Assembly (NCBI GenBank): GCA_030142905.1
Contig: JASJOG010000202.1
Span: 526,768 to 590,767 of the forward strand
Length of the DNA: 64,000 nt
Source of the DNA: Heliopora coerulea
Taxonomy: Eukaryota > Cnidaria > Anthozoa > Scleralcyonacea > Helioporidae
Reading direction: 5' to 3'
The translations under genes were made by a program, and so were the position numbers. Of the stretch, positions 26,064 through 63,860 are shown piece after piece. The notes beneath the pieces were generated by a model that had not been told where the DNA came from, did not search any database, and worked only from the letters and a program-made list of their open reading frames with translations. Position 1 is the first letter of the stretch; each line of letters starts with the position of its first letter.

Positions 26064-26160
26064 ATGTTGTTATTTTTGCTGGTATTCGTGGTTCCTGGTT
26101 ACGAATCCGCCGACATTCTACCTGAACAATGTGAAGATCAGTTTGGTGCAGATCTTACAG
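26064..26160 (+). CDS. Lectin gene exon 1: start and signal peptide
   Basis: The ATG at 26064 is followed by MLLFLLVFVVPGYESA, a short hydrophobic core suited to a signal peptide with cleavage near residues 16-18, then DILPEQCEDQFGADLT. The donor is GTACAG at 26161, phase 1. Joining to 30774 gives a natural entry into FTP1 (LTENFALHKPASQ). Confidence 0.75.
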
Positions 26161-29100: not shown

Positions 29101-32100
29101 TGAACCACTTCTGAACTGTGCTACCATTATTAGCTGAGGTTTAGAGTTTATTCTGGGTTTACTGGCTCGGGTAACATTGTTTCCTGAGGAAAACATATTT
29201 AAGCGAAATATCATTGATAATATAATGATTTTGATCATCGGTTGACGTTGAGTTGTAACTGCAATCTACATTTGAAAAAGAAAATAAAAATTTTCAGATT
29301 CTAATTTCTTTCCGATTGTTTGCTTTTTCTTGGCAACATCTGTGTTAGCAAGGTCAGGTATGCCATTCGAAAGTCAATTAGTTCTTATCCAGTCATTCTG
29401 AAAGAAAGGTTAATTCCTTTCTGAATATCCATACGTTCTTGGATGATCATCTAACTTCAAAATTCATGAACAAAACCTTTCTGAATCAATGTAAAATGTG
29501 TCATTCCTTTGCATATGCTCACAGTTTCGACAACAAAATTTTGACCGACCGAGGATTAAACTCATTGACTTTTAAATGACCAGGCCGTGTTCAACAAACG
29601 TGACGTTTTTGTACATTAAAATTAAAAATTTTAATGACATCACCTGATAAGTTGATCGAGAGACTTTGAATGTCCACAGTCCGAGGGAGATATGTCGATC
29701 CTTTATTCATACAAATCTTGCTCCCTTATAGCATGCATTATGAAATGATCTGCATGTGGGAACTGTAAGATCATGTGAAGATGTATTTCTTGCGTAAGAA
29801 GTAATTTAAGAGTTGTTTAGACAATTGCTCCCAATTGGGCCCCGCGCCTAAGGGGGCCCCACGTTAATGTAATCTACTCTAGTCTTGTCAATTACACACA
29901 ACACATTGCAACATATTACACACCTAAAACCACATTGCAGGTTTTACAGAGAACAGCAACGATTATAATTTTGTTTTGAATTCTTAAAAAGTTAGTAGTG
30001 TTTGTTCATACTGTTTATATTTTGAATTTTTTTGCTGTACTTGAATTAAATAATGTTAATTACATCTGAGTATGTATATATGCATGTTGTGTGTTTCCGC
30101 TGTGTTGTAAAGCAATAAACGGATTATGGTTTATGGTTAATATCTATATAATTTCATTAATTCCAATAATTTGTTAACGCTAAAAGATTTTTAGAAATCC
30201 AAAAAATTAATTTGTTTCCAACAATGCTGTTCACTTACATTTTGAATGTTTTTTCTAAACAAAAAATAAAATTAATATTTTTAATAAATCATTTCACAGT
30301 AACTAAAACAAGTAGTTTTGTAACTATGTACTTTTCAAAGGTGACCTACACATTTTGTTTGCTCACTTGTACGCTTACACGTATGCAATTTTATATTAAG
30401 ATATAGCTTAGGTCTATTTGGTCCATTAACTCACATGCACTTTTTAAGGCACATTTTGATTGCTTTCCATTCTGTCATAGAAATATAAAGTCTATAACAG
30501 ACTTTATTTACATCTCTATAATTCTATAGACCTTGGCTGTGAACCTGGGGCCCCGCCAAAAATGTTCCCAATTAGGCCCCGCAGCTCCTAAGGCCGGGCC
30601 CTGTGTTAAGATTATCGCTCCTTTGTTAATATTTTTGCAAGGTGGGAGATGGTATAGTCATTGAGTTGAATATTTGAGTTAGATGAAGTCATCTACTTTG
30701 CCTCCTCTCCTATTTTGCACATCTGTACCTAATCCAGTGTAACACTCTGAAATCGTTTATACATTTTATACAGAAAACTTTGCACTTCATAAGCCTGCTT
30801 CGCAAACAAGCACAACTAAAGGTGGGTTGGCAAGCCGCGTCGTCGATGGTAACAAAAATCCGTATTTCAACGAAGGAAGTTGTTCTGAGACTGATTTTGG
30901 AAACGACGTGTTTTGGAAGGTGGATCTTGAGACTCAGATATACATTACATCGGTCACGATTACTGCTAGAGCTGATGAACATTGGATGCAGTCCGACTTT
31001 TTTCAAATTTTGGTGCAACTTATCTCAGCTACCTGGAAGTGTTCGGATGGTTTTCTTCCCAATAAAGGAGAAACTAGGACAATAGTCTGTTCTCCTCCAC
31101 GAAAAGGCGATGGGATAAAAATTCTAGTTCCAGGATCGAACAAACGACTTTCACTTTGCGAGGTTGAAGTTCATGGACGTCTGCTTGATTTTTACGACCG
31201 CGAAGGTAAGAAGTTATTTCTAAATAAGGATAAGTAAAGTGAAAACCTGTGTTTTTCATGCAATGATAAAAAGGAACTGATCAACACATAAGGCGTTCCC
31301 GACTCTGATACACCATTAAACTAAATCAGAGAAATTTCTGTTATGCATTTTCGTAGGTGCTTATATGAATTAGAGTCCCTTAACTGACAATAGTTAATCG
31401 AACCTGTAACTTTCCATTAACACCGGAGCTTTGTCATATTTTTATCTACTAAGCTATAATGGTTATCATATATTTACTGTTTCTTGTAGATACTGGCTAA
31501 AAAGACAAATTAATACAGTATAATCCATGACCGTTATGTCACAACCAGAAATAGGTTTAGAGAGATTTTGGCGAGATATTAAGCTAACCAGCACATTCTC
31601 TCGTAAAATGTAATTTATAATAAAAACCGAGCAGAAGTGCTTTGTCATATGTCGAACTCTTTTGCCGAAATATTCCTTTCTTGTAAGTAATTGTCTTGTG
31701 AATCTTAAACTAATTTTTCAAAAACTTTATCGACAATAGATAAGCAGAAATTGGTCTATTATTTCCAAATTCCTGTTTATGTCTAGATAAACGGATTGGT
31801 GACACTCAGGTTTTTTCCCCTCATTCGGAAAAACACCAAGAAAAAGTGAACAGTCGTATATGTATGAGTTAGGGATGGTAAAGTTATTATCATTGCGATC
31901 CTTCAGAATTTTGCTGGTATATTATCAGGTCCACAGGCTTTTCATGAGCTTTAATGCATCATAACTTTGTAACCTCATGAATTGTTATATCATTAAATTT
32001 ACACGCTGATTCACTTTAAATTTACACTGTGATAATTTTAAACACTAATTCTATAAATTCAACAACGATGTTTGCTTGTGAAAAGTGATCTGATAAGTAT

Positions 32101-35100
32101 TTTCTTACATTAGTTAAGTAGTTGTTATATAAATCTGAGATATTTTTATTGTCCTAAAAATTTATATCGTTTTCATTGATATAAGGAGCACAAGTCGTCT
32201 TAGAACGTTAACTACTAAGCTGATCGGTATCTTTGCGCATGTCTTTTGGATTATTACTATTCTTATCAATTGCGCCGTAAAAATAATGCGTCGTGGCCTT
32301 TTTATTAAGTTGTTAACGTCACTTCTCGCTTGCTTATATGACATATGATAAATTCGATGTTTAGTTTAAACTGCCCTCTCCAAGGCAATCACAATTATTT
32401 ATTGTGGTTTTAATATGGTTATTTAACCAAGGAGCATACTTACATGTTTACATGAAGCACTGCTATTCCTTCGCAGCCTCGAAGTGACATACCTCTCACT
32501 TGTAAGGGTACATTTGAATCTCTTGAAGAGCAGTCACTCATTGCCAATACATAAGCAAGACTGATTTTAAATTCAGCGAAACCATAATTTTTAAAATTTT
32601 TTGTCAAACTGATTTTTCCGAACATATGCAAAATCCAATTGTCTACATTCGTATGTAAGACTGTGGTTGCTAACCCCCGAATAAGCTACACATAAATTTC
32701 TGAAATTAATTGGGTATATTGAAATAAGTTTGCAATATCTAGGAATCGATATTCATCTTCATCATTATTGTCATTAACACTGTCATTGTCATTGCAACTG
32801 CAATTACGAAAATTATTATCACCATTATCATTACTATTAGATAGTTACATGCACTTTATCTGATATCATTCCAGTGAATTACGCTTACCAACAGCCTGCC
32901 AAACAATCATCAAATTATAACGTCGAGCACGTGGCGTCTAAAGCCGTTGATGGTACCCGAAGCTCTGACCTTTTGGATTTATCATGTACACACACTATGA
33001 AGGGCACCAGGGAGTGGTGGCAAGTAGACCTTGGAAAAACAGTAATAGTGTACGCAGTGACAATAACTAACAGAAATACATATTGGCGTAGGTTGGGCAA
33101 TTTTAAAATCAGTGTTGGTGCAAGTGAATACCCAACGGATAATGAGAACCCGACCTGTGCAGGACGTAATGGTTTATTATCTGGAGAGACAAAGCCCATA
33201 TTTTGTTTTAATCCTATCAGAGGACGATATGTGACTTTACTATCGTGGCTGGATGAAGTCTTGACGTTATGCGAGGTGTCTGTTCAAGCCAGGAGAATCT
33301 CAATCAGGAACGAAAGTTTATCAGGTTTGTGATTACAGCACGGGAAGTGCTAGAATCCCATAAGGAAACGGACAAACAGACGAAAAAAGAAAGACAAACA
33401 GTAAAACAGCCAATGAAGTTAATCAAAATAACACATTACTATTTGAAAAAAGGAGGCAATTAAAGCGACAAAAAGATCATGAAAAGTCACGGCGTTTAAA
33501 ACACTAGTGTAGCCAGCCCATTGGTCTTGGGTGGACACAGGCACACAGCCATGAATTTACCCGGGGGTGACAGCCAAGCATTAAGCGCAAGCCTTCTAGA
33601 AGGTGTGGGGACATTGCCCTCAAGAGGTTTTTCAATTCTTAGGTCTCTGAAATGGTATTTCCTGCATTTTAAGAGGAACTTAAAATAGTCTAACAAGTTT
33701 CTCTTCGGTTGCTTCGAGTTTTGTTCCATTCTTCAATTGACATGACAACAGTATATCAACCTTCATGTGCGCCAGCAAGCTTCTGGATCATGCGTACACG
33801 CATCACGCACGGGAAATGGGTTGGCATGGGCTAGAGTGGGATATCCAATGACGTCCTTCGTTTGCAAGATAGGCTAGGCACGTGGCCGACCAGGCCCAGC
33901 CTTGCCTACGCCACTGGTTTAAAAGCCGCAGAAGTACAATGGCAAGGTTTCGCCAAGAATTCATATAAGATAGATATAAAAATGGGTTGCAGCGTCGGTA
34001 GTATAAAACAGCACAGAAAGTTAAAAGGTTGGTAGACTGCTGAATTTATTATAGAGATTTCTAACGTTTCGAGCTATGGCCCTTCATCAGAAAGTAAAAC
34101 GAGTTCTAAAAGAATGGCAACTAGACTAGGTTTTATACTAAAGGGAGTCATGTGACAAGAGTTAACCAATAAAATGTGAGAAATATAAACGAACAGAGCA
34201 ACAACCTAGCAACGACAAGGACGTCGCTTGTGATTTTTAACGGCAATCAGTAAACCGACACGGGGAGAAACCGCCAGAGACCCCAGAGGAATAGGAATTT
34301 GCAAACGATAAAAATGAAAACAAAACCAAGGGAAAACAGTGTATAAGCTAATGTTTCTATCTGCCCATGCTAGACAAAAACAAAAACTTATTAGGTGGTT
34401 AAATAAAAGAAAACCGTTCGTTGAGCCCATGGGGAAGAATTGTTCCAAGTTTGAAAATGAGACGCCTTTCCTGTCTCTTGCGGCTATCATTGCCACCGGA
34501 GATGGATGAGATGACGCAAACTTTAATATTCGTATGTTGACAAGCCTGTCGCCCGGCATTTCAACAGCGCTAACCATGTAAATTGGCCCTAATTTTATTA
34601 TTTTTAAGTAACTTTGAGTAATTACAGTTTGTCCAGATGCAAAGCCTATGGGTATGGAGGATCATAAGATTCTTGATTCTCAGATCAGCGCTTCCTCTGA
34701 ATGGAATCACGGACATCGTTCCGCTAATGGCAGGTTAAACTTTCAGCGACGTTCAGACAGAACTGGGGCATGGTCGTCGTTGCTAAATGACGTCAATCAG
34801 TGGTTTCAAGTAGACTTTTTACAGATAGTGACCGTGATCGAAATAATTACCCAAGGTCGTGCGGATCATGATCAATGGGTGAAAAGTTACACAATTTCGT
34901 ACGGCAACGTAGCCACCAGCTTTTGGTTGTACGAAGAACATGGACAAACCATGGTAAGAGCATAAAGGCTTCTTCACTAAAGCTACAGTAACACTGATCA
35001 ATTTTTGTCGCCGATTTGTTTTGCCATGGCTTTGCGAGGTAAATCAGTGAGTGTAACATGCACCTACAAGGTCGATTTTTGCTTTTCAAAAGTATTGAAA

Positions 35101-38100
35101 GTTTTCGAATTGGATCAAAAACTTGCAACCAAGTGATAGATTTGGTATGATGATGATATTACCATTTCAACATTATCTCTTGTTTCTTTGACTCATATCT
35201 TGAGTTTTACAAGATGATCATTTTCGGTGTATGTTTTGTCTTATACTTTTTCAAACTATCGGCTGGTCATGGTTTTTAGGACGAGAAAGGTTAATACAGT
35301 TTGAGTTGTATCGCTCATTTGACTGTTTCACAAGTTTTAGATGAGGACTGGGTTCTTCTCTTCGTTTCATCCAATCCGTAGTCCATATAATCCGGTTTCT
35401 TCTCTTATCTTTAATTAAACTAAATTTAAAAAGGGAAGCTTCCTACCGCTAGATAAGTATGTATGTACCGCATTTCCTCTATGTAGCCCTCCCCGTCTAA
35501 TTAACTCCCAGTTCAGAAGTACAGGGAAAAAAATAAGCCCCCAACCTCTAGCCCCCACCCCTGATAAGGGTACTTTTATTCATTAAAAGTAGATATATTT
35601 CGATATGGAAATATGAGTGCTAAGCGACAACGTTCTATGAAGAAACACGTTCCTTTGTTTGAAAGTCGGTGTATTTAAGTTCTAAAGAACAAGAAAATTT
35701 GTTAAGCCTCCGGCCTCTATTTATCTCTTCCTTCTAATAAGGCCCCGGTCTAGAAACAATGAAAAAAATAAACCGCCCCAGCGGGCTAAATAAAAGAAAT
35801 ACGGTAATTAATGATAAGCTGCCGCACTTACATTCTTTGATCTTTTTCAAAACAGTATTTTTAAAGACAATTCATTATCCAACCAAACATTATAACGCTT
35901 TGACCTTGCCTAAGATATGGGGGGAAGGTTCGTGAAAAATGAGAGTTCATTCGAACTCCACCAGTGTCATCTACCGTGCGCCAGCGATCATGCTATTAAT
36001 GGTGATATTTTTTTGAAAACAAAAGGTATTCCTTGGAAACACTGACAGGAATTCAATTGTCCGTCATACTCTATCACCAGCTATCGTGGCTCGCTTGATT
36101 CGCATTCACCCAAAAACCTGGCATGGACACATCTCAATGAGAGTAGAATTTCGTGGCTGTTATAAAGGTAAACTGATTAGGGAAATCGAATGAGATAATT
36201 GTGAACAACAAAAGTATCTGAAAATGGAGAAGGCTTGCAGTTTGATTTTTTTTGCAGTCGCTTTTTTATTCGTGCATAAAATTTTTCAGGGTTCCTAATA
36301 CATTCACTTTTATCCTACCTTAATCGGAGGTGGTGAGTGCCTGAAATTTTAGAAACAAGTGTCAGTGGCAAATGAGTCCCGTTTAGTCCTTATGTATTCT
36401 ATGTACTCATTTCAAATCAAAACAAACATGGCCAAAACAAGAAGAGATGCTCGGGTTTTAATGTAATAATATATCTTTAAAACGACATTCAGAATGATAT
36501 TAGAAGAAAAACTACTACATAAAATGAATTGCTGAGAAATCATCAAAGTAGTGAGATTTCGAGAGCTGGCAACTGTCATACAAACTTTCTGCACCAAAAG
36601 TTTGAACCATTCGTGTTTTCGTTGGTATCATTTAGTTTTATAACTTAGATCATTGCGATATCATCAATTTTGCATTGTTACTAAACCTATATCTTGAACA
36701 TCAAACTGTTGTATACACTTAATATGAAGGATAGTTTGATTGCTGATGATTACCAACACTGTCACTGAAACCTGTTTTGCGAAAGTTTTCCATGCGATTT
36801 TTTACCCGTGACAGGACTTAAATTGAGTTAGTTGAAGAACTAGTTTTGACCCTGTATTAATCTACCAATCGTCTTATTTGAGAAAATTAGAGAAAAACAA
36901 CTTTGAACAGAACAAACATTGCATTGTTCTAAGACCTCAAGGTCCAGATTCGCTGCAGACAAGGTGTAGGTGTGCCTTGCCCAAAACGCCAACTTGGTGA
37001 GCCCGAATTCAATACCAAAGTGGTTAGTGAGTCACCCACTTCTTCAAAATGTACGTGAGCGAAAGGCACAGGGCCAACATTACCGCCTGCGGCGTAGGAA
37101 ACGAAAGTGCGGGAGCCGCGACCTCTCTAAAGTCCACGTGAGGACCAGGGATATCATTTGACCCCGAAAAAGCTTAGACCGTGTGAAAAGAAAATGTTTT
37201 TTAGGCCCAGTTTCATCCAAACAAACTGTATACCAGAGCTTAATAGTTAAGTCTTATAATTTACTTTTCATGTTATCTGAGGGGTCAATTTCATGATATT
37301 AGAAGTCATAATCTCCCAAGGAACAATGCATGCCACTTACCATAGTCGAGTGAAATTTGTTTTAGTTAAAAATTAATAAATTTAAGAATTAAATTCACAT
37401 GCTTTTACTGTCCTGTTATCCCAGAATCATTCCAAAAATGCATTAAATTGAAAGAATTTTCTTATTTTAGGCTTAAAATTTTTAAACACTGACCAATAGC
37501 TCAACTACCTCAAAGTGAAACCTCGCATAACCAATTTCAACAACTGTTGTTAAGATCTCTGGTTTCGTATAGATAACGTCTTTAAAGATAACGTATGCAG
37601 ACTCAACTGAGCACGTTTCTTTTTTTTCGCAACTGATATACAAAGATTTCTTTTCGAGAGTTAGCCTTTATCTTGTTCTATTCGCATTTCATTTGGGAAT
37701 AAAATAATTACCATGATTTTCTTTTTATGTTTGCTAAGTTCCTCAAGAGCCTCTAATCGATCCTGAGTATGTAGCTTTGGAAAAACGATTAACTGCATCG
37801 TCTTTCGAGGATCGGTAAGTTAATGTTTTTGATATATTAAACCTACTAACTATGTGTATGCTGGTACTCCTGGGTTGGCAAAATCAGAAAAATTTCCTCA
37901 AAATAAGTTTCGAAGATGAGGCTCAAGCAAAACTGTGCATGGTCCAAGGCCCTCCTTTAGACCTATCGTGGGATCCAGAGAAGGTCTTGGTTCATCGAAT
38001 TCTATACTACTTTTGCCACATATTTTAACGGTCATTGATCTAATGGTTGTGAAGCTAGAGCAGTTACATTGCTTTGGGTCATTTAGGGTTAACTGCCACC

Positions 38101-41100
38101 CTAAGCCTGATTTTTAATTTAGTTAATCGCACCTTATTGGTTGCATAATCAACATGATTAGCGAATCATGCACCGCGGATTTCCTACTTTTTTTTATTTT
38201 CTTGATTTTTTTCTTCGCACTCCATTTTCCCTCCTCTTCCCTTACTTCGTTTCATTTTCCTATTTACATTTATCCCTTTTCTTATGTTTCAGTTTTCTTT
38301 CTTTGTTTCTTCTTCCTTATCTTATTTTTCTCATTTTCCTCAAATTTTCCTCATTGATTTGCTGCGGGTGGGCAAGCCGCCCACCCAGAAAAACCCTGGC
38401 TACGCAACTGGTTCAGGGCATCTCAAGAGACTGCAACTGAAAACCTTTAATGTAGCGATGTGCATGCTTGTTCAATTAGAGAACTTCTTTCACTTGAGAT
38501 TGAAATTCCAACAGTTTATGATTTTCTTTGATTCAGGGACCAGCAGAAATAAGCGTTTCCTCCAGAAAATTTTTATGTTTCTAGGCTGAAAATTCACGAA
38601 GAATTATAATTAACCTCGCACGAGTTCGTCAACTTCTTGTAGTTTACAAGCTTACAATTTCCTGTAGTATGTCCGTACATACCGAATTATAAAACATCGG
38701 CGTTTTTACGAAAAGAGCATAGACTATATAAGGTTTATTCAACAAAGTTTGCAAGGTTTATGCTGCGTGACCCAGGGCACATACGATATAAAACTTATGA
38801 ACTTTGTTGAATTAATATCATCTTATCCATGCTCTTTTAAAAGGACCTGACAACAAAGATTAAACTATTTGTAAGCAAATTTCAATCAAAACATTTTCAG
38901 TCGCATTCAATTGACTGTCCAATTTCATTTGAACTTGTCATGACTTACTCAAATTTCTTGTTTCATTTTTCACTCTTGGTAATGACTGATCTTAACATTT
39001 TGTAAAGAGAACTCGGGAACTATTCGTGTTGCCGGGGAACTGCGTCAAGCTTACTCTCGAGACAGTCATATAATGACATGAAATAATGAAACTGAAACAT
39101 GGTAGCATAGCTATTTATGGAGCACCTTCATGTAGTTTGGTAATAGATATCTCTCTTGCTGAGATGCAAAGTGATAACCATTGAATGCAGAGGCATTCCT
39201 ACCAAAGTTTAAGAACATGCTCAACTTAGAAACATGGTTTAAGGAATTTCTGTACTGGTAAAACCATTTTTAAATTGGTGGGTGGAGGAAGCCGGGGTAC
39301 GTCATGCGGGTGCCTGCGAATGGTGACATCCCTCACTTATCGCTGAATGGGTCGGTAAAACGGTTAGTCGGAATAGGAAACCTGACCCTGTTGGTAAGGT
39401 GCAGTGAGAGCAATTACTTCAGTTGATAAAACACGGTTAGCTGACCAGCAAAAGGGCTTGTTTGGTCGGTAAATGAGGCAACAGGCTACAACACTCCTAA
39501 CCTTAAAATGGTCATGCCTCTCCGTAGGATTTTCACACTTACATCCCATTTTGAAACTACGTTATACTTATTTATTCTATAAGCAGTCCTTAACCTAAGG
39601 ACAAACAACCAAATAGTTTGAGGATTGGCCTGAAGAGACGCCATGGTACTGTTGAAGCTTTACAAAAGCCTAGAAATTAACCAACTTTACAAGACGATCG
39701 TGAGTTGTAGCATGTCGGAGAGCATATCACCAGTTGTTTAATTTCTTCTGGCTTTGGAATATCTATTCACTTGGTACTCTGTATTCCATGTGACTTGTCA
39801 TTTGGGTTCCGAAATAAGAATAGTCAGACTTAGCCCAAAAGAATGCACCATTAGAATCAAGCGACGGTGGCATTGTAAATGAAGGTCAGGGGCAGCCGCC
39901 TTCCTAACGGAAAATGATTTCCCACAAGCTGAGAGGCATGTGTTAGGGTTACGATTTTATGGCTAACGCTAGGGTTTTTGAGATAAGATTTTCGATTGAT
40001 GATAATAATAAGATGACATGTTCGGAAATAAACGGAACCTTTCTCTGCAATGAAGGCTGTAGTTTCAGCCGTCATGTTACCATTACTTTATTGTTGTGCA
40101 TCATATTCTCTAAGATCTTAAACATAACTACTAAAACATATAAATAAACATCACTGCATTTTGCTGAATCAACGCGCGACAGTGGACTCAAAATACAGGA
40201 GGCTTTATTTTAAGAGAATACCCAGTATAATTTATTCGATGTGTACTTAATACGCACGCTCTCAAGCTGTTCTCTCAGAAAAACTTTCTGAGTCCCTGAC
40301 GGACCCGTAACCTTCTGTACGAAACGAACCCGTAACCTTCTGATCGCCGGTGAGATGCTCTAACCATTGAGCTACACAGACTCAGATGGTGAGCGAAAGT
40401 TATTTCCGTCAGGGACTCAGAAAGTTTTTCTGAGAGAGTAGCTTGAGAGCGTACGTATTAAGAACATTATAATTACCAAGCTACCACAATTACATCATTA
40501 ATTAGCACTAAAAAAATAATAGACGACATATCGAGACTTGCAGACTGGCAGTACGTATGTCTACCATCGATACGAACCAGTACATAAATGTAACCTTCGC
40601 TCACCATCTGAGTCTGTGTTGCCCAATGGTTAGAGCATCTCACCGGCGATCAGAAGGTTATGGGTTCGATTCCCGTCAGGGACTCAGAAAGTTTTTCTGA
40701 GAGAGTAGCTTGAAAGCGTGCGTATTAAGAAAATTATAATTACCAAGCTACCACAATTACATCATCAATGTGTTAGCAGTTGCGAAAAAAGCTTATCTCG
40801 GTATGATCGATACATTGATTATAGAAACTTATCGATAGTCCTGGGTATGGATGTAAAACTAATAAATTAATTTTTGAAAGTTTACTATTATCCAAAAAAA
40901 TATGCTCTTTTAAAATCTGTTTTTCCAAACCCTGTGATATGACAACGACATAACGTCAATGTTTATTTTCAGCCGCCACCAACCACATTATGGTATACTC
41001 TCAGACAGTCCTAAAGCTTCGTCCTGGACTCCAGCAATCAAGCAGACAGGACAATATATACAGGTTTTCCATCTTTTTACACTCTGATCATATTGATATT

Positions 41101-47100: not shown

Positions 47101-47752
47101 GATGGAAATAGCTTAAACGCTTTTTCCGGGTGCTCAATAAAGGTGAAATGCTTATTCATCATAAGAAATCTTTATCCCATTCTTAGGGATGTCTTGGTGA
47201 GGAAGATACATACCTAATGGCGTCATGATCACCCATGCCTCAGTGAAATGAGGAAATCTGTGTTGCGCTGACAACATATGAGCGATCTGGTGTGAAATAG
47301 GGACTAATTAGCTGGCTGGAGTGAAATATGTTATTTTACATAGTTCGTGTATTCAGCCAGATATTCATGAAATGCTCAGTCTTGTTTCACAGAGTTTTCC
47401 CGTTGTGAGCAGGCCATCGACTAAAAGTTACAGCTGCCAAAATGACGCCAATATCGACTGGAACCTGCACTCCCAAAACACTCCCAACAACGCAGTCCAT
47501 ATATCTTATTTAATTTTACTCTATCCACAACTAATATTCATGTTTTTAAAAAATATTTTTAAAAAATTATTATATGAAATTATGTACTTGGATGAAAACA
47601 AAGATATGTATATTAACTCTCCTCGAAGTGAACGAACCCGTACCGGACAAGTAGAGAAAAGCTCTACTCGACCGTGGCTAGGATTAAAAGCCGCGGTCAA
47701 GTGGAGTTTTTCTCTACTTGTCCAGTATGGATTCGTTCACTTGGAGAAGCAT

Positions 47753-47796
<44 letters not shown>

Positions 47797-48591
47797 GAAG
47801 TAAAATAAACAAAATTTTTTTGTCGCTACTCTGAGTTTCACACGATCAGGCGATCATCAGGCAACTGACAGCTTAGTTGAAAAGAAAACATGAAATCCTT
47901 TATCACTAGACACAACAAAACAATACTCAAAAGACATGACAACCAAACAAAACCAACAAACGCAAACAACACACGGCACTGTAACTGTAGACAACCTGAC
48001 CTATTCCCAATCCAAGGCAATTGCCTAAAAACGAACGTAATTTACAAGGCCGAAGTTACAACAACTGACAACAACGAGACATGAACACACATAGGCGTCA
48101 CAGCCAACGACTTGAAAACTAGATACCGAAACCACAGCAAATCACTGAACAACAAAAAATACCACAACGACACTGAACTTTCCAAACACATATGGCAACT
48201 CAAGGACAACAAACAAAAATACACGATTAAGTGGGAAATCATCAAACAGCTCCCATCATGTAAAGCAGGATCTAGAAAATGCTGCTTATGCTTAGAAGAA
48301 AAGCTCTTAATCTTGAAGGGACGTAAAAAGAACATCTTAAATAAACGATCTGAGCTTTTCAGTGCTTGCCGACATGTAACACAACACCATCTGTAAACTT
48401 ACAAATATCCTAATTGTGTGCATAATTAAATAATCTGTCAGTTGCCTGATGATCGCCTGAGTGCGTGAAACTCAGACTACTGACAGCAAAATTTTGTCTA
48501 TTTTACTTCTTTATTCGCTCTACTGATATGGTATTGGGCGCTCTTCATTCTCAAACCAACACTAAAACCTTCCTGGTCCTCACCTTTGGTT

Positions 48592-48622
<31 letters not shown>

Positions 48623-51600: not shown

Positions 51601-54600
51601 CTCTCGTGAATTTTTACACAAAACTGAATTTTATTTTGTTCTTTGTTTCGTCCTCACAGAACGCTTAGTCTTCGACCACTACTCCCAAGGTTTCAACTAC
51701 ATTGTTGTTTCTGCTTCTAAATCTTGGTCAACGGCACGTGCTTATTGCCTGTCACTTCAAGCAGATCTGGTCATCGTTCAAAGTCAACATTCGGTGAACT
51801 TTCTCAAAGACATCGTGAATCGTTTTAACTTGGGAAAGATTCATATTGGTTTGAGAAGACATCCTGGCACTTCCGTATTTCACTGGGTCAATGGGTTGGA
51901 AGTAAAATTCTCGAACTGGCACCCTAATGAACCTAACAATAAGTATCAGGAGTGCGGTGACCAGTATGCAAATGGTTTGTGGGATGATGGAAGTTGCCAT
52001 ACCCAGTCACGATTTGTTTGTCAACAGCCTATTAAAGGTAAGTCCAGTATATGATATAAAAATTGGATACCGCGTAGACAGTGTTGAGAAAAGTAAAATT
52101 TCAAAGGTTGGTAACTACCACGCAAAGAATTCTAACGTTTCAAGTAAAGCCCTTCGACAGAGAATCAGTGACAGCAGTAACCAACCTTTGAAGTTTTACT
52201 TTATTGAAGGTAAGTGAGGGTAAGAGGACTTTTCAGTGAACTTTGAACTAAACTGGATTACCAAAACTTAATAGAAAATTTGAGAAAATACGTTGTGGAA
52301 GTCAAGGACGACACAAGTTTCCAATAAAATTTCTCTGCCCAAATTAAAGAGATAAATAGTTCATGGTTACTAGAGTATTCTCAGCCTTTTCGCGCATGAT
52401 TTTTTGTTCTTTTATTTCTTGTTCTCTTTTATTTTTGCTTTGTTTTTTCATTTGAACTTGTGTTGTAATTTGTTGTTGTACGACAACGGTATAGATGAAA
52501 GGGTTGACGTCCCCTTAACGCCAGGCTGTATATGAAGCAGAGCATTTCCACTTTTTAACGACAATGCTTGCAGTAATAACCCGGTGGGATCTGGTGCTGT
52601 GTTCAGCGAAAATGTTATTTTACGAAATAGAATTCCTGGAATGTGTTTATTAAGAATAAAAAGAACGTCGTGGGTTTATCATGTGCGGTTTGCTTCGTGG
52701 CGAGACATTCACAGTACATTACTGGCGTCGATGTCGCAGCTTTCTTGAACTTTCAAAAAAAAAACCAAGCTGGGATTATCTTGCATGAGGTATTTCAGTG
52801 CCAGAACAATGGAATCACTAAAAAGTGTTTTTCAACTTAAGCGTTCAATCACCCTCCCACGGGCAGAATTAATTATTTTTCATCAATAGAAACCTGCTAG
52901 ATCTGGCAAGCAACGTGGTGAGTGGCTAATGAGGTCAAATGTTACAATATACGACAAAAATGTTTGGATAAACAGTATAAATCAGACCTGGAAGAATGAA
53001 ATTTCCAGCAAGTTTACGATAGAGAACGGATCTGGAGTCTTCTTTTCTTGAAAGATCGTTGGATATTTTGACATGTAGTTTAGGAAAGCCATTTATATTG
53101 CAGAGTTTCCAATTATCGTCGGTATAATTTTCGGTTAACTTACCTTCTAAATGTTCGTCGGTTGATTACTCCATGAAACAGATTTTGTGAAGTTAAGTCG
53201 GATTGAACAGGTTTAGTCATATTTAGACACTTAGAACATTTTCAGAAAGGCGAAAAATTTAAAGCTGATGGAAGTGGGGAGAAGAGAGAATGATTCATTC
53301 CTAATCTTCGTTCCATTAATGTACAATGCGATCGTATGGAGGCTTGAGAAGGCTTCCTGCATTTTCTTGAAAGTGATTAAATTCATATTTTAAATGAAGC
53401 ATTAAAAATTCTAATTAAATACTTTAAAAACTAAATACGTTTTCTGATTAGCAGAAAAACTTGCAGGTTGCCATGACAAAAGTGACATTTCAAAACACCT
53501 TCAAATTACTATTCAACCTGTTCTAATTCAAAAAAGGGTTCAGAGACGTCTTTTTTGTTTGTTTGTTTTATTTTTTTGTCATTTTCGTTAAAACGTTTCA
53601 TTGCGTACGTGCTCTAAGTAAGCAGATTAAAAAAAGAAGTTCTGTTGGATCAAAAAGTTTTAGTAAGAAAATCATGTTTTATGTAAAACTATATATGTTT
53701 ATACCATGTTTTTCTTACATTCTCAAATGGTCTATTTTCCAAAACACAAACTTGCATTTTCTGGTATTTGTGACTGGTTAGTGAGCTAACATGTTACAAT
53801 GAACGACAAAATCTCGAATGTTTACATAAACAGTCAAGATCAAAGAAATCTGAATATCTCATGTACGAAGAGGGGTGCGGAAAAGCTGTGAACAACATTC
53901 ATAATCATTTCAACAGTTCTTTCAAACACCACAAATTGATTTTCATGGGCAATTTAAAGGATTCAAACACAGCAACCTCATCCTGTTGTCAAGTTTTGTT
54001 CCGACTTAGATCAGGTAACCACGAAATTCATCATACGAATAAATTTTAAAAAACTACGATTTAACTACTACCTCTGAAGTAGGACCCACTTACGATATAG
54101 ATGACCCATGTACTTGGAAAACAGTATGTTCAAAATGTAATATGGCCCTGGGCCTTAGTAAACCATTAGTATGTTGCTTTTAGCTAAGTCTAAATCTTCT
54201 GTATGATTTAGTCGCAACTTTGAGTACTGTTTAGTCACAACCATATATACCTAATAGGCGAAGAATGAGTACTAATGCCCAGCATATAACGCGGAATAAA
54301 GCCATAACAATTGATAATTTAAAGCATAACTTATTGAACAAGCAACTAACGTTTCATCGCGACACGTGGCATCATCAGAGTGACCAGGAGTTAATTTACA
54401 TATGATCTGTAAGTGACAAGAGGGGTCATATTGCAAGCTGTAGAGTTCATTAGATACTTAACTAAGAGAAGGAAAGGTAGTGACACATTACGAGTAATAG
54501 ATTAAGGATGTCGATATCAAAGAATTTAAAGTTAAAATAGAGACAAGGGAATAGAACTAAGGTTGGTGTTTAGTGAAGGACTAAGTTTACGAATAAGTAA

Positions 54601-57600
54601 ACTTTCACGGATGAGAAGCTCAGAAGGAGAGGAGTTTGATGAGAGAATCTGAAAGTCGTTCATGGAAGCAGAGTGGTTAGTTTTGCAAAGATAAGAAAGG
54701 ATGCTTGAAGGCGAGGGATTAACACGTTTCTTCCACGTCAAAGCAGAGATTCCCAAGTGATCAGAGACTCTTGTGGTTAAGTGGTGTGCTGTTTGGCCCA
54801 CATACAATGCGTTACAACATTGACACGAGAAAGAATAAACCACATGAGATCTCAGACCCTCAGGAAGTCTGTCTTTGAAAGGAAAAAAATGTGAAAGGCG
54901 TTTGGTAGGTCGAAAGACGGTGCGGATGTCAATGTGTGAAAAGGCGGTAGAATTTAATAAAAAATTTAATATAAAAATTAAAGCCCAGTATATTACTTGG
55001 AGAAAAGCCATGAAAGATGGATAAAGGAAACATAATATTTATACATCTAACGTTTCGTCGCTACACTCGCAGCATCTTCAGATAACTATTTCCAGAAGTC
55101 AAATTAAGCTAATTATATAATTACAAACAAGGTGATAATTAGTTATCTGGACCAATCAGAGAAAGAAAGAACTAAATATAAACCTGACACATAATAGAGG
55201 AGATTAATATTTTGTTCTTATTTTTTTACATTTAGTTCTTCACATCAAGCTGTCAGATTTATATTTAGTTCCTTCTTTTTCTGATTGATCCAGATAACTA
55301 ATTATAATCTGGCTTGTAATTATATAATTAGCTTACTTTGACTCTTGTAAATAGTTCTCTGAATATGTTACGAGTATAACAATAAAAAGTAATAAATATT
55401 AAGTTTCCTATACCCGAGTTTCATGGCTTTTCTTCGAGTAATATGCTGTGCTTTAATTTTTATATTACCCATACGTTTTCCTGCTGGTGAATCGCTAGCA
55501 AACTATGTACATTGTTGAGTAGTAATAACGTGCATTGTTTTGTTAGTGTATTTACATTAAGGGACCGCAGTAATTGGCGTCAGCTGTTGCGGTTGTCCAG
55601 CCACTAATTATGACAAGGTAAATAAATAAATATGTCATGCCTAGCTGAACCTCCGAACTGCTATTTTCTTGATATTCTTAGATATAATAAATATGACACC
55701 TTTGGGTATGGAGAGTGAAATTATAGCAGACAGCTCTATCACAGCTTCTACTGTACGAAATAATGATCACCATGCTCATTTTGGCCGTCCTAACACTCAA
55801 AGAGGTTCTTCCAAGTCATGGTGTTCATCGCCGTCTGATCTTGCACCGTACCTTCAGGTCGATCTTGGCGAAAGAAAAGCAGTTTGTGGTGTTGGAACTC
55901 AAGGACGCGGTATCCTCGATGGAAGTGTCTATTATCCCATGAGATATTCAGTTCAACTGAGCAACGAGTCTTCGAATTGGATGGCTATCCATCAATATGG
56001 AGAGACAAAGGTGGGAATCCGAGTAAATAATTATCGACTGCAACCACTAATTACGGAGGAGGTTCGTCCAAACTGGAGTCTTGGGTGGGGCAAAATTCAA
56101 CAATTACTTTAAAAAGGTTTAGGAGTCGTACATACACCTAAATTGCGTCCTCAATTTTTTTCTCGTAAAAGTCAAACTATGCTAGAAAGTCATAAAAATA
56201 ACCTGAGCTTCTCCATGGAAAAACAAAACATTATTGCTTACGATTATACGTCTTTGTCTATCGGCAAAAAAGAACATTTACGGAAAATCTTGAATGTGCT
56301 TAGTCCCTTAACAACTATAGGCGCAGCAAATAGTAGGTTCGGTTTTGATCTATGGAAGTCCAAGTCTTTGTTCAACTTAGTCGTCGACGTCTTGTAGACC
56401 TAGCTACTTTTGCTTCCCTGATGTTGTTTCCTATAATGCTAGTCGAAGCGTACGTTCTTGTGGTATGCCATCAATCTTTCCTGCATATATTCGTTTCTTC
56501 CGAATTTGAAACATATCAGTATATAATATAATTGTCTTTAATGCCATACACATGGCTTCAGCCATTTTAGATCTTATTTTGTCGGTAGATGTTAACTATT
56601 AACGGGACAATCTACGGACCACAGTGTTATATTCACATCCGTTCTGACTTCACATTCCCAAAATAAAGTCAAAGTTTGCTTCCCAGAGCTGGTTCTAGAA
56701 TAGCACAAGTCAAGCTAATAAAATTTTCATCTTGTGTTGTCCAATTTTCATAAACTAATTAAAGAACAATGCAAAGCAGAAGTTCGCAATGTGGTCCTTT
56801 ACGTTGGAGAAAAAGCAATGAACAGGGAGTTTTTGCGATTATTTTCGCAACTTAAATCATTCGTAGGTTTTTTGTAGTAGCAGTTGTTGTGCACAAACGA
56901 AAGGGAGCGCAGGAGTTCGTGGCTTGGTTTCCTCTGAGATAAATAACTCAAATTATGCGTCTAAAAGTGATGCAAAGTTGAAGAACAGACTGTTGAGGTT
57001 AAAAAAGGACAAAGGAAACAAACCAAAATATCAAAATTCAAGATATATTGAGCTAGAGTTATAAAGTATCATCTTTCCATCGTACTGATAAGCAAACATT
57101 CCGACAGGTAAAAGAGATTTTGATAAAAACATAAGGTAAGAGTGTTGCACGATAGCAGAACCAAGAAACTGGATGACCAGGTATTATAATGCTTCGAATA
57201 TCCTTTCATTGACCATCCGAATCGCAACGACTGTAACTCAATTATCTGAGCTTTATTTTTCATTTACCTTCTGTGGATAAACTACAAAAGTTTTTTGCCC
57301 TTTCTGTCCTTTTCAAAAAGGTATTCAGTGGTAACGAAGATAGGACTAGCATGGTAATCAACCGTTTTCATCAGCAATTTGTTGCTCGATTTGTTCGCGT
57401 TAAATTTTTGGCGTGGAACGGTCAACTTTGTGCAAGAATGGAAATCTTTGGCTGCAAAACAGGTATTATGCTTTGTTGTAAGTATAAACCATTTCGCCAG
57501 GCCCCGGTGCTATTTTCCTTCCACTGATACCCCAACTTCAATGTTAAACTTAACTACTTAAATTACTTGCTTTTTTTGTCCTCATTTCTAAATAAAGTAT

Positions 57601-60600
57601 GTTCTTGACTTACTGAATTTCTGATATAATTTCTGAAATCTTCAGCCTCATGTCAAAATCTAAAGAAAAGGCGTATGTTAAATACCTTAAATACCTAACC
57701 CAAGTAGTGTTATGTTCATCACTTATGAACTGTAGAGACTTCCAGCGAGTGAAAGCAATTAATGCGTTGCAATGCACTAAAGATGAGTAAATCCAGAAAA
57801 AAATTGTCGCTTTTTTAAGATCGATGCTCATTACAGCTATTTATAGGGTCAGACTAAGGCATTTTGTTACCATGCACTGGCTATCAGCGCATTTATGAAA
57901 ACAGCGCCTCAGCATTTTAGAGATTGAGCAAGGTGCCGCATCTTGACAAACAGCGCAGCTATTTTAATCCGACTCAGGATTTGCGATATTTCTTTCTTCC
58001 GGATTAGTAAAAATTAATATTTTTTTTTGTTTTAGTTTAACATAATGCAATGGATTTTATCCCAATTTCAGAAAAAGACCAAGAACAAGGACAACCTGCG
58101 GAACTCAGTAAAAAGGCCAAATTGATTGGTCGTAGTTTACCATCAAGTGCCACAGGTATTTTAGTGAATTAATTCATAAACATGGATTTACAGAAGGATG
58201 GGTATCGCTGTTTCTTTCGAAGACTCCTATTAAATATGATATCTAGAAAAATACGTTTTACAAAATTTCTGATATACCAAGACGCCATATACTGCATCAG
58301 AAAAAAATTGCATTTAAGAAACTAAGATGAAGATAAATGGTGAGTCATGTTAAATAGAATTGCAATTGTAAACATGCATGTGGTATTGAATCATTAGACC
58401 CTTAACGAAAACTTAGGGAAAATTGTTCAGCAGTTTTCAGATCTGCCAAGGTCAAAACTAACATGCTTTATATTCATATTGGTTGACTACGTTAAGTAAG
58501 TCGTCTTAGTAATGAATTTAACCAGAAAATAAGGGTGGCCAGTTGGGTTTTTCTACTGTGTTTTCTTGCTTGACGACCAAGGTATAAAGGAGTGACGTGG
58601 AAAGACAATGTTCGTGGTTGTTTTAGTCAGCTGCTTCCGTGCAACTTGCTAAAGTTACCGAGGTCTTTTTTTAGTAGACTGTCCGTATGGTGATATCATT
58701 ACTATGCCTATGATGTTATCCAGTTTTAGAAACAACTTCACCCCATCCTTCGATCTCGTTTAGAAAGTAACTCTCCTTTTCGATTAGAAAAATAGCTAAT
58801 AATCTTATATCTTTGAACTTCCAGATCCTATTTTCGAAGCAAAAGTCAACTTTACTTTATGCATTTAGTATCTTTTATTTTTTTCTTTTATTTTTTTCTT
58901 TTATTTTTTTCTTTCGTTGTATTATAGGGGAAGTATCTGGGAGCTGCTTAGACCTTCTCATTAGCGGCAAAATTTCCGATAGTGTCTACATGATTGATCC
59001 GGACGGTGAGGGAGGTTTTCCTGTGTTCTGTGACCAGACTACAGACGGTGGCGGATGGACTGTGTTTCAAAGACGCCAAGATGGTTCAGTGGATTTTTTC
59101 CGAACTTGGAACGAGTACAAAGTTGGCTTTGGCGATGTTTTCGGTGAATATTGGCTAGGCAATGAAAAAATCTTGAGGCTTACCCATAATCATGAATCTG
59201 AGCTTCGTGTGGATCTTGAATCATTTGCCGGCGAAAGTTATCATGCTGTTTACGATTCGTTTATGATTGGCAACGAGGATGACCACTATAGATTGTATTT
59301 AGGTAATTATCAAGGAACAGATCGTGATAGCATGGATTGGCATAGAAATATGATATTTGGAACAAAAGACAAAGCTCCCAATGGTTGTCCAAATATTTAT
59401 TCTGGTGCCTGGTGGTATCGTGTTTGTCATACGGCGCATCTTAATGGCATTTATATCGACCACATGAATGTTAATACAAGCGGTATCACTTGGACATTCT
59501 GGAAGAATCGATACGAAACATTGAAAACGGCAAAGATGATGTTAAGAAGACGAAAAGGTAGGAAACAACATGTGAATTAACAAATATCGACCTGTGTCAC
59601 TAACCGGTTGTGTATAGTCAATTTAATTTCGTAAAATTGACTAACATATAACCAAGACAATATGAACAGCTGGACTGCATGGGATTTACAGGGGGTGACG
59701 TAAAAATTTCATGTCACTGGTGATGAACGCATCTAAATGTCATCGTGAAGCGTCTTCTTTGGTGATACAAGCAATTACATGCAGCCAATCAAATCGAAGG
59801 AAAAGTTGATGTAACTTAGGGCCATTCTGTCATAAACAGCCGAGTCTGTTTTATGTTGTAATGAGCATATTATAAAAGTGTTTACGGCATGACGTTCAGA
59901 AAACAATCGAAAATAAACACTTGTTTAAAAAAAAAAGAAAAAGACCAGTTTATCCCTTTGCACAAGAGATGTACAATGAGTGCAGTTGACCTTGAAATTC
60001 TAACTGCGCTTGTATATTCTTATGTCAGGAGGGTGTAACCAGCCTATATGCTGCAGCTGCTACAGTTAGAAAGCTTTTGACTTCTTGCATGGCACTCGCC
60101 CATCAATGCAGCCTCAGTCTCAATAAGATAATTTATTTACAGTTGGAGAAGGCGCACTTGGAATTGAAGACCAGTTTATCAAGGACGTGCAAATGTCTTC
60201 GAACTACGAGCATAGCACCAGTTATTCTGCCTCAGAGGCTAGGCTGAACTCTCTCCACTACTGGACGTCACCTGATTCACCTGACTCTGGTTATTACCTA
60301 GAGGTAAAACTGCTTCTTCTCCGCCACATCACCCATATCGCAACTCAAGGGGGAAGTGATTACAGCTTTGTATCGCGGTTTTACATTCGGCTAAGTGGCC
60401 AGGGTGGTTTCTGGCAAGATTACACAGAGGATGGAAAGACCAAAGTAAGTATACCGTGTACATGTGAAACGATGCGTCTTCTCGTTTTATACGGCAAAAT
60501 GTCAAGTAGAGGAACTTTCCATACATGATCATCATGTCTTCGAACCTGAAGAAGTACTTTGACAAGCGCCTAACAAAAAACTAAACAAAAGAACGACAAG

Positions 60601-63600
60601 CCATTATTCCTTGTAATTATTCCTAAATTATATCATGTGAATGCACTTCATATTTTGTTGACAGAGTGGGTGCTGTATTTTGTATTTTCAATTAATTTCA
60701 CGAAAACTTAGGACGTTTTTACTAAGAATATCGATGGTGTAAAACCGTCAACATATGAGTTTCTTAAAAGCAAGGAGTTTTAATTATTGCGCTATTAAAA
60801 CTAAATCCAAATTAAAATTCTTTGGCGAAAATACCAAGAAAGAATTTAAATATACGACAGAATGTTAATTCCTTGTATTTGTGGATGTTGTCAATGCATT
60901 TGTACTTATATATTTACATATTCATATGTTCGTGGGAGAACATGTACGAAGACCGGATGCAATACTACTCTTTATTCAGAGTTTCTTGTCGGTAGGCGAT
61001 CGATCGAGTTGCCAGTAGGTTATCTACTGGAGTGAAACGTGAAGAAGAGACTAACAAACTTTAAGTTTAACTTTAACACTTTCGAACTCTTTTACTTTAC
61101 TTGCCCCTCCAGCTGTCTTTCTAACCAGCTGTCTTTCTGCATGTTTGCTTGTTTGTTTCTTTTTTTCCTTTCTTTTATCTTTTTCTTTCTTTCTTTCTTT
61201 ATCTCTTTCTTTCTTTATCTCTTTCTTTCTTTCTTTCTTCTATTCTTTTTTCTTTCTTTCTTTTTTTCTTTTGTTTACTTTAATGTCTTGTTTAAAAAGA
61301 TGATCACATAAAATATGTTCAGGGCTCTAATCGTGTAACCTGGACACCTTTAACCAACTATACTAAATATATACATGCTAAAACTCCTAAGTTCTATCAG
61401 ATTTAAAAAAGTTCTTTATACTAATCGAGCCAAATATAACTGCATTTTGCATTCTTTTCAAAACATTCTCTACTAATTTGTCCTGTTGTAAAACTTATTT
61501 AGCAAATTTTTTAAACACTTTAAGTATCCTCCCAACGCATCCAGCAACGCGTTAATTTGATAGACATCATAGCTCTCATATCTCCTCTGAAGCTCAACAC
61601 GAACTTCCTGGTATTTGTCGGTTTTTTCCTTGTCTTTCTTTTCCACGTTTGTAATCCATTGCAATACTATTTCTTTCTTTCTTCCTTTCTTTCTTTCTTT
61701 CTTCCTCTCTTTCGTTATTTCCTTGTACTTTCCTTTATTCTTCTCTTTGTTTCTTTTTTATTTCTTTTTGCCAATTTGTCTGTCCTATCTGTCTGTCGTT
61801 TGGATTTTTTTCTCTGGGTCATTCTTTCTGTACATAAACAGTAAACTGCAATTTCTGTTGCTTAATGATAATTTAATGAACTCAAAGTAGGTTTCCTAAA
61901 TGCAAATCTGCTCTTCCACATAGTTTCTAAAACAGATGAATTTATGTCCATTTTGCTTTAGATATTTAATGGAAACCAACACGCACAAGACCCATCAAGT
62001 ATAGTTTCCAACTGCCTGAAAGAGACACTACCAGCTAAAGCGATACGAATATATCCCACAAAATGCTTTCAGTCATGCTCAATGAGGATTGAGTTGTACT
62101 CTTGTGAAAATTGTGAGTTATTGCATAAATTCGTTGGATTAGCTGAATTCCTAGTAATATGGTTTAGAAGCAAGTATTTTACGCCGTTTTCCCTGCCAAC
62201 AATAACATAACACAGAGTTCACGATTCATAAATTTCTCTCATGAATTTTGCAGTCTTGACGCAACATTGGCACCAAATTTTAGGATATGCCATTTTAGAG
62301 ATCTTAATTAGAATTTCAAAGTTTTCCGGGATATGCAATTTTAGAGATTTTAGAATTTCAAAACTTCGCGAGTGCCGGCTCTTAGTGAAGAAAAAAAAAT
62401 CCTGCTTAAAATTTCTTTATCAAGTTAATGTTTTGAACCTGGGAGAATCAATACGCGTTTGTGAATCCTGATCTTCCAGGTTAGTGTAGTGTGGAGAAAG
62501 ACTGTCTGTGACTGACATTTTAACGGACTTAGCTGAGTTCGTCTTCAGACTCCTTATTTAACTGTGAAGATGACCACTGTTGAGTCTGATGCAACATCGG
62601 TCACTAATAGTCTTTCAGAAAACTATAAACTGACCTGAATGATCAACATCTATGAACACCTACTAAAATTCGTTTGTTTACACGAACCACGATAAATCTG
62701 ATATGTGAAAGTCAGTCGTCCAAACCTAAACACTTTGTCGCATGACAGTCACAACTCGTGAATATCAAACCACACAATCCACGTTCCGTGAAATCATCTC
62801 TAATTATAAGCTCACCATACGGGGCTGTTCAATATGCCTAAGAAATGGCAGGGTGTAAACGTCTGAAAGAGAAAACAAAAAAAGCTTTAGGGTCGTATTA
62901 GGAGCAAACGGCTAACACAGATTCTTAGCTCATCCACATGGGAAACGAATAAAATAATTAATGAATGATTGAATGATTGAAGGACTGATTAACTGAATGA
63001 TGATAAAAATACTAAGACAATTTACAGTTACAACCGACCATACAGAGTTTTGTTTGGTCTTTAATGAATGTTAATCTTAATAAAAAGTAAATATTTTTTT
63101 TTTTAAAAAATGCTTGAATAATGCTTTTCTAGTGTGCTCTGCACCACTGGGGCTTGAGTCTGGCAACATCACTGACGAAAGAATGATTGCTTCGTCTTCG
63201 AATTCTGGAACAACTGCAGCAATGGGACGACTTCTTGGCGCTAGCTCGTGGTGCTCCAGTCAACAGAAAGTTGATGAGTATCTCCAAGTCAATTTTGCTG
63301 AACCTTTCCTTGTTTCCTATGTGGCAACTCAAGGTGGAGCCAGTGCTGGTACCAATTGTTTCGTGACGAGTTACGGTCTCGTGTACAGAGATACTGGAGA
63401 CAACTGGTTGATCTATGGAGGAAGGAGAAAAAAGGTAATCTTGCTATTGATGTTGATAATTATTACTAACTTATTAAAAATAATTTAATAAAATGAAGTA
63501 ATTATACTATTGTTTACCAATAAAACTTAGAAGTGACAGTAATGAAAACACATTTTATAAAAATGAAAACAAATTCAGGTTATTGAAGGCTCAATCACTT

Positions 63601-63860: not shown

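Follow-up and report, generated by a model that had tools for sequence, protein, structure and literature searches.

Introduction

Ionotropic glutamate receptors (iGluRs) with a K+-type selectivity filter are already known from bacteria, where GluR0 of cyanobacteria is a K+-selective prokaryotic glutamate receptor with two transmembrane domains, and from one rotifer, Adineta vaga, whose AvGluR1 is an animal iGluR that bears a K+-filter signature in an ordinary eukaryotic iGluR architecture (PMC12332018). Here we analyse a window of 64,000 nucleotides from the octocoral Heliopora coerulea (contig JASJOG010000202.1, working label C116, positions 526768-590767), in which window positions 26064-63860 hold the first 25 exons of a very large gene. 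The best explanation of this locus, and one that we regard as fairly likely, is a 65-exon gene for a 5015-residue octocoral membrane protein in which a lectin-array head is coupled to a K+ channel.

A lectin- or adhesion-headed member of this receptor group was not found described: no account of a cnidarian K+-filter iGluR joined to a lectin, FN3 or EGF ectodomain turned up among the matches listed from the open-licence PMC literature, which leaves subscription journals mostly outside. Six gene identifiers (LOC numbers), including LOC114517402 and LOC114531613, are not named in those matches, and the accessible portions of two papers on iGluR evolution (PMC12226733 and PMC6307864) do not contain the string 'GYG', nor does that of PMC6307864 contain 'fibronectin'. 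Such a family is easily overlooked when its members are named 'sidekick-like' or 'uncharacterized', or when a gene is split by contig ends.

Results

The 25 window exons (5476 nt) were read from the DNA and checked by script; they join in one frame of 1825 codons with no stop, and all 24 introns between them have GT-AG borders. An earlier sequence-only reading of this DNA had proposed the same 25 exons in one frame, though with 1819 codons, a count that our reconstruction corrects. Every module border lies at phase 1, and the N-terminus is hydrophobic (mean 1.81 across 19 residues in a hydropathy scan), in agreement with the signal peptide proposed before. Pfam returns the order two F5_F8_type_C_2 (FTP-like), three F5/8C, ILEI, Lectin_C, F5/8C, Fibrinogen_C and two F5/8C, which bears out the domain order of that reading except at exon 16; this exon had been called LamG-like, has no Pfam match on its own, and the label is unconfirmed. 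We also applied a small home-made gene finder to the window exons, training it on either half and testing it on the half held out; at a penalty of 15 it predicted exactly 7 of 13 held-out exons in the first case and 0 of 12 in the second. As it performs this poorly, support for the exon model comes from homology and not from ab initio prediction.

The gene had been left open at the window edge, and rightly so: the right edge is the end of contig C116, and the frame continues on contig C619 (71,796 bases). In a scan of the assembly (429,824,877 bases in 769 contigs), the first 16,411 bases of C619 matched window positions 47620-64000 at 99.4%, and its 3' part was overlapped in reverse by C275, at 99.2% over 3853 bases and then in pieces of 97.1% and 87.4% (6 kb compared), the C275 copy of the gene region lying at C275:246001-260095. 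C619 appears to bridge the two large contigs C116 and C275, with the gene cut by contig ends. Within the C116/C619 overlap, the coding sequence shows seven differences between the gene copies, two of them residue-changing, and no indels; outside exons there are 39 changes and 52 gap columns. With 79% residue-altering changes expected at random, coding constraint is likely in this overlap, from a count of only seven changes.

C619 carries 40 further in-frame exons (26-65) ending at C619:71338, with an AATAAA about 250 bases past the terminal exon (Table 1). GT-AG borders flank all 64 introns of the complete model (46 in phase 1, 15 in phase 0 and 3 in phase 2), of whose protein the window encodes the N-terminal 36%; a possible 21-nt micro-exon at C619:64173-64193 is excluded. 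For Pfam, hydropathy and the full-length search we used a 63-exon draft of 4941 residues that is without the two SEA exons, and ten pieces of it gave 8 discoidin-type, 5 Lectin_C, 4 Fibrinogen_C, ILEI, MAM, Laminin_G_3, 9 fn3 and Ion_trans_2 matches. Trained on all 25 window exons, the gene finder produced a best chain on C619 that is unbroken from the contig start into the S2 exons; we treat this chain as a lead only, as it includes false exons, among them segments that resemble mobile elements, and leaves out several exons of the model.

Table 1. Parts of the gene on C116 (window positions) and on C619 (contig positions)
Feature	Sequence	Position	Strand	Basis
Exon 1: start codon, signal peptide, EQCEDQ..ENFAL border	window	26064-26160	+	hydrophobic N-terminus
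Exon 2: FTP-like discoidin domain 1	window	30774-31205	+	Pfam F5_F8_type_C_2
Exon 3: FTP-like discoidin domain 2	window	32875-33324	+	Pfam F5_F8_type_C_2
Exons 4-5: F5/8C 1	window	34628-34953, 36026-36167	+	Pfam
Exons 6-9: F5/8C 2	window	37739-37814, 40973-41063, 41931-42080, 42924-43044	+	Pfam
Exons 10-12: F5/8C 3	window	44484-44669, 46014-46135, 46423-46561	+	Pfam
Exons 13-15: ILEI/FAM3-type domain	window	47063-47142, 49286-49473, 50566-50759	+	PF15711 E 1.2e-17
Exon 16: conserved 74-aa unit	window	50954-51175	+	alignment with both orthologues, 35% and 27% identity
Exon 17: C-type lectin domain 1 with EPN	window	51660-52037	+	PF00059
Exons 18-19: F5/8C 4	window	55682-56010, 57321-57462	+	Pfam
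Exon 20: linker	window	58072-58155	+	weak conservation, 28% and 22% in orthologues
Exon 21: FReD 1	window	58928-59557	+	PF00147 E 1.9e-62
Exons 22-23: F5/8C 5	window	60143-60444, 61962-62112	+	Pfam
Exons 24-25: F5/8C 6; gene continues on C619	window	63133-63434, 63719-63860	+	Pfam
Exons 26-28: Cys-rich unit, ~110 residues	C619	17663-17734, 18477-18649, 19572-19656		
FReD2	C619	20893-20981, 23428-23968		
CTLD2	C619	25417-25596, 26325-26486		
CTLD3	C619	27123-27311, 27986-28159		
FReD3	C619	35106-35741		
CTLD4	C619	35978-36157, 36526-36687		
CTLD5	C619	37086-37274, 38088-38267		
FReD4	C619	39650-40042, 42537-42782		
Exon 42	C619	44258-44614		
MAM	C619	44828-44965, 45718-45977, 46959-47046		
EGF-like bit	C619	47419-47484		
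LamG	C619	48746-49360		
SEA-like	C619	50062-50150, 51546-51759		
FN3 exons 1-5 of nine	C619	52002-52307, 52971-53258, 54477-54773, 55829-56131, 57382-57678		
FN3 exons 6-9 of nine	C619	58643-58939, 59627-59926, 60472-60768, 62926-63234		
S1 and M1	C619	64782-65251		
Pore helix	C619	66648-66742		
Filter and M3	C619	67609-67774		
S2	C619	68616-68682, 69933-70204		
M4	C619	70280-70448		
Last exon, ends in stop	C619	71178-71338		

A database search with the draft returned 17 proteins, topped by two from Dendronephthya gigantea with the same kinds of domains, P0016 (LOC114517402, 4987 residues) and P0017 (LOC114531613 isoform X2, 5535 residues), both of them uncharacterised database gene models; the remaining matches cover at most 20% of the query. 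All 63 draft exons, including the 25 of the window, have aligned residues in both proteins in the same order, and the two are colinear with the Heliopora protein from the discoidin domains to the channel. The final model is 48.4% identical to P0016 over 4871 of 5015 residues and 46.9% identical to P0017 over 4950 of 5015. The Dendronephthya proteins are 44.6% identical to each other and thus form an old pair, and by taxonomy lookup Heliopora (Scleralcyonacea) and Dendronephthya (Malacalcyonacea) belong to two octocoral orders. P0016, the one of the pair that was scanned with Pfam, has the counts of the query (8 F5/8C, 4 Fibrinogen_C, 5 Lectin_C and 9 fn3). Unlike the Heliopora protein, P0016 has no clear FTP pair, while P0017 is extended by additional residues in the discoidin region and has lost the SEA motif. 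The earlier statement that no described protein has this domain order therefore still holds for described proteins, but the order itself is shared by these two uncharacterised ones.

From this colinearity we predict, with near certainty, one single gene from the window head to the channel. A separate gene start near exon 10, 13 or 18, which the sequence-only reading had named as the observation that would speak for separate genes, is contradicted by the two colinear proteins. The alternative is that two or more neighbouring genes were misjoined, the window holding a gene for a secreted lectin and the FN3-channel part belonging to another gene further downstream. In its favour is an alternative in-frame stop that starts 39 nt beyond exon 34 (C619:28198) and has ~3 kb of mobile-element-like segments behind it; yet both Dendronephthya proteins run through exons 34-36, nothing between exon 1 and S1 of the draft resembles a second hydrophobic signal, and P0002 of Montipora combines F5/8C, FN3 and the channel in one protein, so that we consider a misjoin very improbable. 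The alignment is weak at exons 1-3 in P0016: exon 1 has only 12 of 32 residues aligned in this model, which is without a signal peptide, and the FTP region is only 18-19% identical. The EQCEDQ..ENFAL border of exon 1 is kept in P0017.

The ectodomain comprises 17 lectin-type domains (8 discoidin-like, 5 C-type lectin and 4 FReD) as well as ILEI, MAM, LamG, a SEA-like unit and nine FN3 domains. Ca2+-dependent C-type lectins bind sugars through an EPN or QPD motif; in the query, EPN is present in C-type lectin domains (CTLDs) 1 and 5 and missing from CTLD2-4, and among the orthologues CTLD5 has EPN in both, CTLD1 has EPN in P0016 and EPS in P0017, and CTLD3 has EPN in P0016 and EPD in P0017. FReD lectins of the ficolin/tachylectin-5 type carry a D-x-D-N-D Ca2+ site and a GGWW..C...LNG pocket, of which query FReD2-4 have DRDND or DQDND and FReD1 has no such site, the pocket residues being mostly retained; the Ca2+ site of FReD4 is altered in both orthologues. 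The fucose motif of fucolectins, H...R-x-D-x4-(R/K), occurs in neither FTP domain of the query (RADEHWMQ in FTP1, RNTYWRRL in FTP2). As these motifs are only partly present or conserved, sugar binding is plausible for some of the head domains only. The Cys-rich unit of exons 26-28 has no Pfam match and is 42-62% identical by exon to both Dendronephthya orthologues; it is an unnamed domain.

Exons 16 and 42 are possibly the first and second halves of a LamG domain split by an insertion of ~2000 residues, with weak scores: the joined query pieces reach E 0.03 (profile positions 16-115) and the exon-42 piece of P0016 E 0.042. The joined pieces of P0016 and of P0017 gave no match, and the split domain is not established.

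Directly before the FN3 stalk stands the SEA-like unit. Self-cleaving SEA domains bear the motif G-S-[VI]-[VI], which the query has as RRGSVIADV, P0016 as GSVV, and P0004 and P0005 as GSVI; P0014 has GSLI, although Pfam lists no SEA there, and a search for a SEA-type motif in P0001 and P0010 found none. The Pfam SEA matches are sub-threshold in the query (E 0.0043) and in P0016 (24.9 bits versus a cut-off of 26.4). The presence of this motif suggests that the head may be cut at G-S-V-I and held non-covalently.

The C-terminal part has the order S1-M1-P-M3-S2-M4, as judged from the hydrophobic profile and from alignment with relatives; the hydropathy scan of the draft marks the N-terminus, M1, M3, M4 and one weak stretch in S1. 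With three helices of membrane type encoded in frame with the head, a purely secreted matrix role is unlikely. The multivalent recognition or adhesion function proposed in the earlier reading agrees with the lectin-like anatomy of the ectodomain, but the protein is not just an adhesion or matrix protein: beyond the window, its C-terminal part is an iGluR-type channel that carries a K+ filter. The filter sequence TVGYGD follows the pore helix in the query, P0016 and P0017, and Ion_trans_2 matches the query at E 1.5e-14. Anatomy, conservation and filter signature are read directly from the sequence; that the protein conducts K+ is a prediction from them which we hold to be quite probable. A non-conducting adhesion or pattern-recognition receptor, its pore a mere relic, would suit the 17 lectin-type domains as well as relatives such as P0014, whose filter reads THGYGD, and P0006, which has no filter. 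However, the query, both orthologues and most relatives retain the filter together with the sequence around it, and few exons of the gene are as well conserved in the orthologues as those for S1-M1 (60-61%) and M3 (66%); we find a dead pore highly doubtful.

Lig_chan of Pfam reaches 16.1 bits in the query against a cut-off of 30.8; among the relatives it is above the cut-off in P0005 (34.0 bits) and P0010 (41.7 bits) and below it in P0002 and P0004. Searches of solved structures by fold matched iGluRs and GluR0 cores, and searches by sequence matched K+-channel pores only, or FN3 proteins and pores (best 60 matches of each search); that no iGluR is among the sequence matches is no evidence against iGluR kinship. 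NCBIfam scans of eight channel pieces returned K+-channel models and one weak solute-binding-protein match (one member, E 0.0021), below the stated cut-offs, and Pfam found no periplasmic-binding-type amino-terminal domain family in any of the ten query pieces. The classical M3 motif of animal iGluRs is SYTANLAAF; it is absent from M3 of the query (SSLLIGAIAAAFTTS) and of the relative P0010 (STFTATITTMLTA).

Another possibility is a ligand-gated K+ receptor, in which a small extracellular molecule would close the S1/S2 clamshell as in GluR0 while the head would only position the channel. The two-lobed S1/S2 ligand-binding fold of a relative matches GluR0 cores, and an S2 aspartate (P0033 D359) is invariant in 19 of 19 aligned sequences, four bacterial-type ones included. 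By contrast, the S1 arginine that holds the amino-acid carboxylate, five residues before D-F-S-x-P, is absent at the equivalent site of the query (I) and the orthologues (L and I) and in most close relatives, which makes this kind of gating improbable. The arginine is present in P0044, P0045 and P0047 (bacterial type) and in P0042; the D-F-S-x-P pattern missed the S1 site in P0034-P0040, P0043 and P0046.

A search with the channel part returned 15 proteins, 14 of them aligned over at least 87% of the query part and one, P0015, over the pore only; the organism-named ones among the 14 are all cnidarian. Their ectodomains comprise F5/8C and FN3 in Montipora P0002; EGF, TSP1, F5/8C, SEA and FN3 in Oculina P0004; LamG, TSP1, SEA and FN3 in Oculina P0005; TSP1 and FN3 in Hydractinia P0014; EGF in Rhopilema P0010; and CUB with or without Ig in P0007-P0009. 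The database names the Montipora proteins P0001-P0003 'protein sidekick-1/2-like', although their match to the channel module covers 95-96% of the query part. They resemble the Heliopora gene in uniting an FN3 array (with F5/8C in P0002) and the same channel module in one protein; the precomputed domain lists give them none of its FReD, C-type lectin, ILEI and MAM domains. The Sidekick name probably reflects their FN3 repeats only. A profile search, which scored only the 7997 candidates sharing most words, gave 39 proteins at E 1e-5, including an FN3-channel protein (P0033, Stylophora) and a CUB-Ig-channel protein (P0035, Oculina); next in rank were four GluR0-like proteins, P0044 (Pseudidiomarina) and P0045-P0047, for each of which SBP_bac_3, Lig_chan and Ion_trans_2 are precomputed domains. 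The lowest ranks held mostly ordinary K+ channels.

In the Heliopora genome the channel query matches at 63 places. Besides the gene and its C275 copy, 12 further matches to the S2 part (on C490, C268, C523, C20, C6, C117, C85 and C334) indicate that the channel family has expanded; others among the 63 cover the pore alone, within long open frames, as expected of ordinary K+ channels. Three of these contigs, C85, C523 and C490, also have discoidin matches on the strand of the channel match, ~16 to 49 kb upstream of it.

The variety of heads is relevant to a further alternative, a matrix-anchored, force-gated K+ channel, whose ectodomain would anchor the cell in mesoglea or skeleton or to the cell next to it and whose pore would be opened by tension on the SEA/FN3 stalk rather than by sugar recognition. 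Several relatives retain FN3, EGF or Ig before the channel while the outer domains vary, the Heliopora protein has nine FN3 domains and the SEA-like unit towards the membrane, and discoidin and FReD domains often bind matrix. A pure tether, on the other hand, has no obvious need for 17 lectin-type domains, and the domain counts are identical in P0016 from the other octocoral order; we judge force gating to be rather unlikely.

Several features lie outside the coding exons. On the minus strand of window positions 7337-14336, two open frames have weak WD40 matches and may be exons of a WD40-type neighbour gene; a third open frame in this interval has no WD40 match. Intron 6 contains a tRNA gene (window 40612-40684, Rfam 41.1 bits), the surroundings of which recur as partial and inverted copies at window 40242-40769. 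A GIY-YIG-like fragment in intron 17 (window 54532-55467, minus strand; E 0.00094, 19.9 bits against a cut-off of 22.6) overlaps a 500-bp inverted repeat and is probably the remnant of a mobile element. Long open segments without the look of a lectin or a channel occupy C619 ~30695-33552, in the intron between CTLD3 and FReD3, and are probably a mobile element; one of them gave no Pfam match above the cut-off. Overlapping low-complexity open frames on both strands of window 1-800 derive from a degenerate repeat.

Discussion

If a lectin-array head is indeed coupled to a K+ channel, the K+ pore would be built from four subunits, like that of iGluRs and of K+ channels in general, and the head would be linked to the gate by the S1/S2 clamshell and the FN3 stalk. 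Engagement of the lectin array on a dense surface, be it the mucus of prey or of microbes, a symbiont, or the glycocalyx or matrix of a neighbour, would open or close the K+ conductance. Gating of the channel through its ectodomain is a serious possibility that falls somewhat short of probable. Still more tentatively, we propose a new receptor class of lectin-gated K+ channels, in which cnidarians would have taken a GluR0-type channel, abandoned the amino-acid ligand and added interchangeable adhesion or lectin arrays. A working channel would provide a direct molecular link from surface recognition to membrane voltage, and under lectin gating the engagement of glycan or matrix would hyperpolarise the membrane directly. 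The octocoral array offers 17 lectin-type domains per subunit, 68 per tetramer if the channel is tetrameric, and a possible SEA break-point.

As we read the field, it has yet to be settled which glycan receptors cnidarians use in stinging and symbiosis. A lectin-gated K+ channel, if real, would be a candidate for the glycan receptor still being sought in the arming of nematocyte discharge, or else for the recognition of symbionts or neighbours on contact. Nematocytes of Nematostella respond to acetylcholine with a hyperpolarisation carried by K+ channels; this relieves CaV inactivation and so allows the cell to discharge, a process that N-acetylated sugars are known to modulate (PMC7250568). 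A K+ current through the Heliopora channel could likewise hyperpolarise a stinging cell and lift CaV inactivation. By analogy, a glycan-engaged K+ channel would fit this discharge logic; nothing here places the gene in cnidocytes, and a role there is distinctly unlikely.

The retention of a K+-type filter by an iGluR-like channel in an animal lineage, combined with an unusual ectodomain, bears on the evolution of glutamate receptors from K+ channels. The overall plan recalls polycystin-1 and adhesion G-protein-coupled receptors, which also have a very large lectin or adhesion ectodomain; their self-cleaving module before a membrane part through which they signal would correspond to the SEA-like unit and the channel. 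They differ in their membrane parts of 11 or 7 transmembrane segments, in GAIN rather than SEA cleavage and in their set of domains. GluR0 is not known to have an adhesive ectodomain and has no M4, whereas the Heliopora channel has M4 and lacks the ligand arginine. AvGluR1, going by its published description, shares with the Heliopora gene a K+ filter in an animal iGluR.
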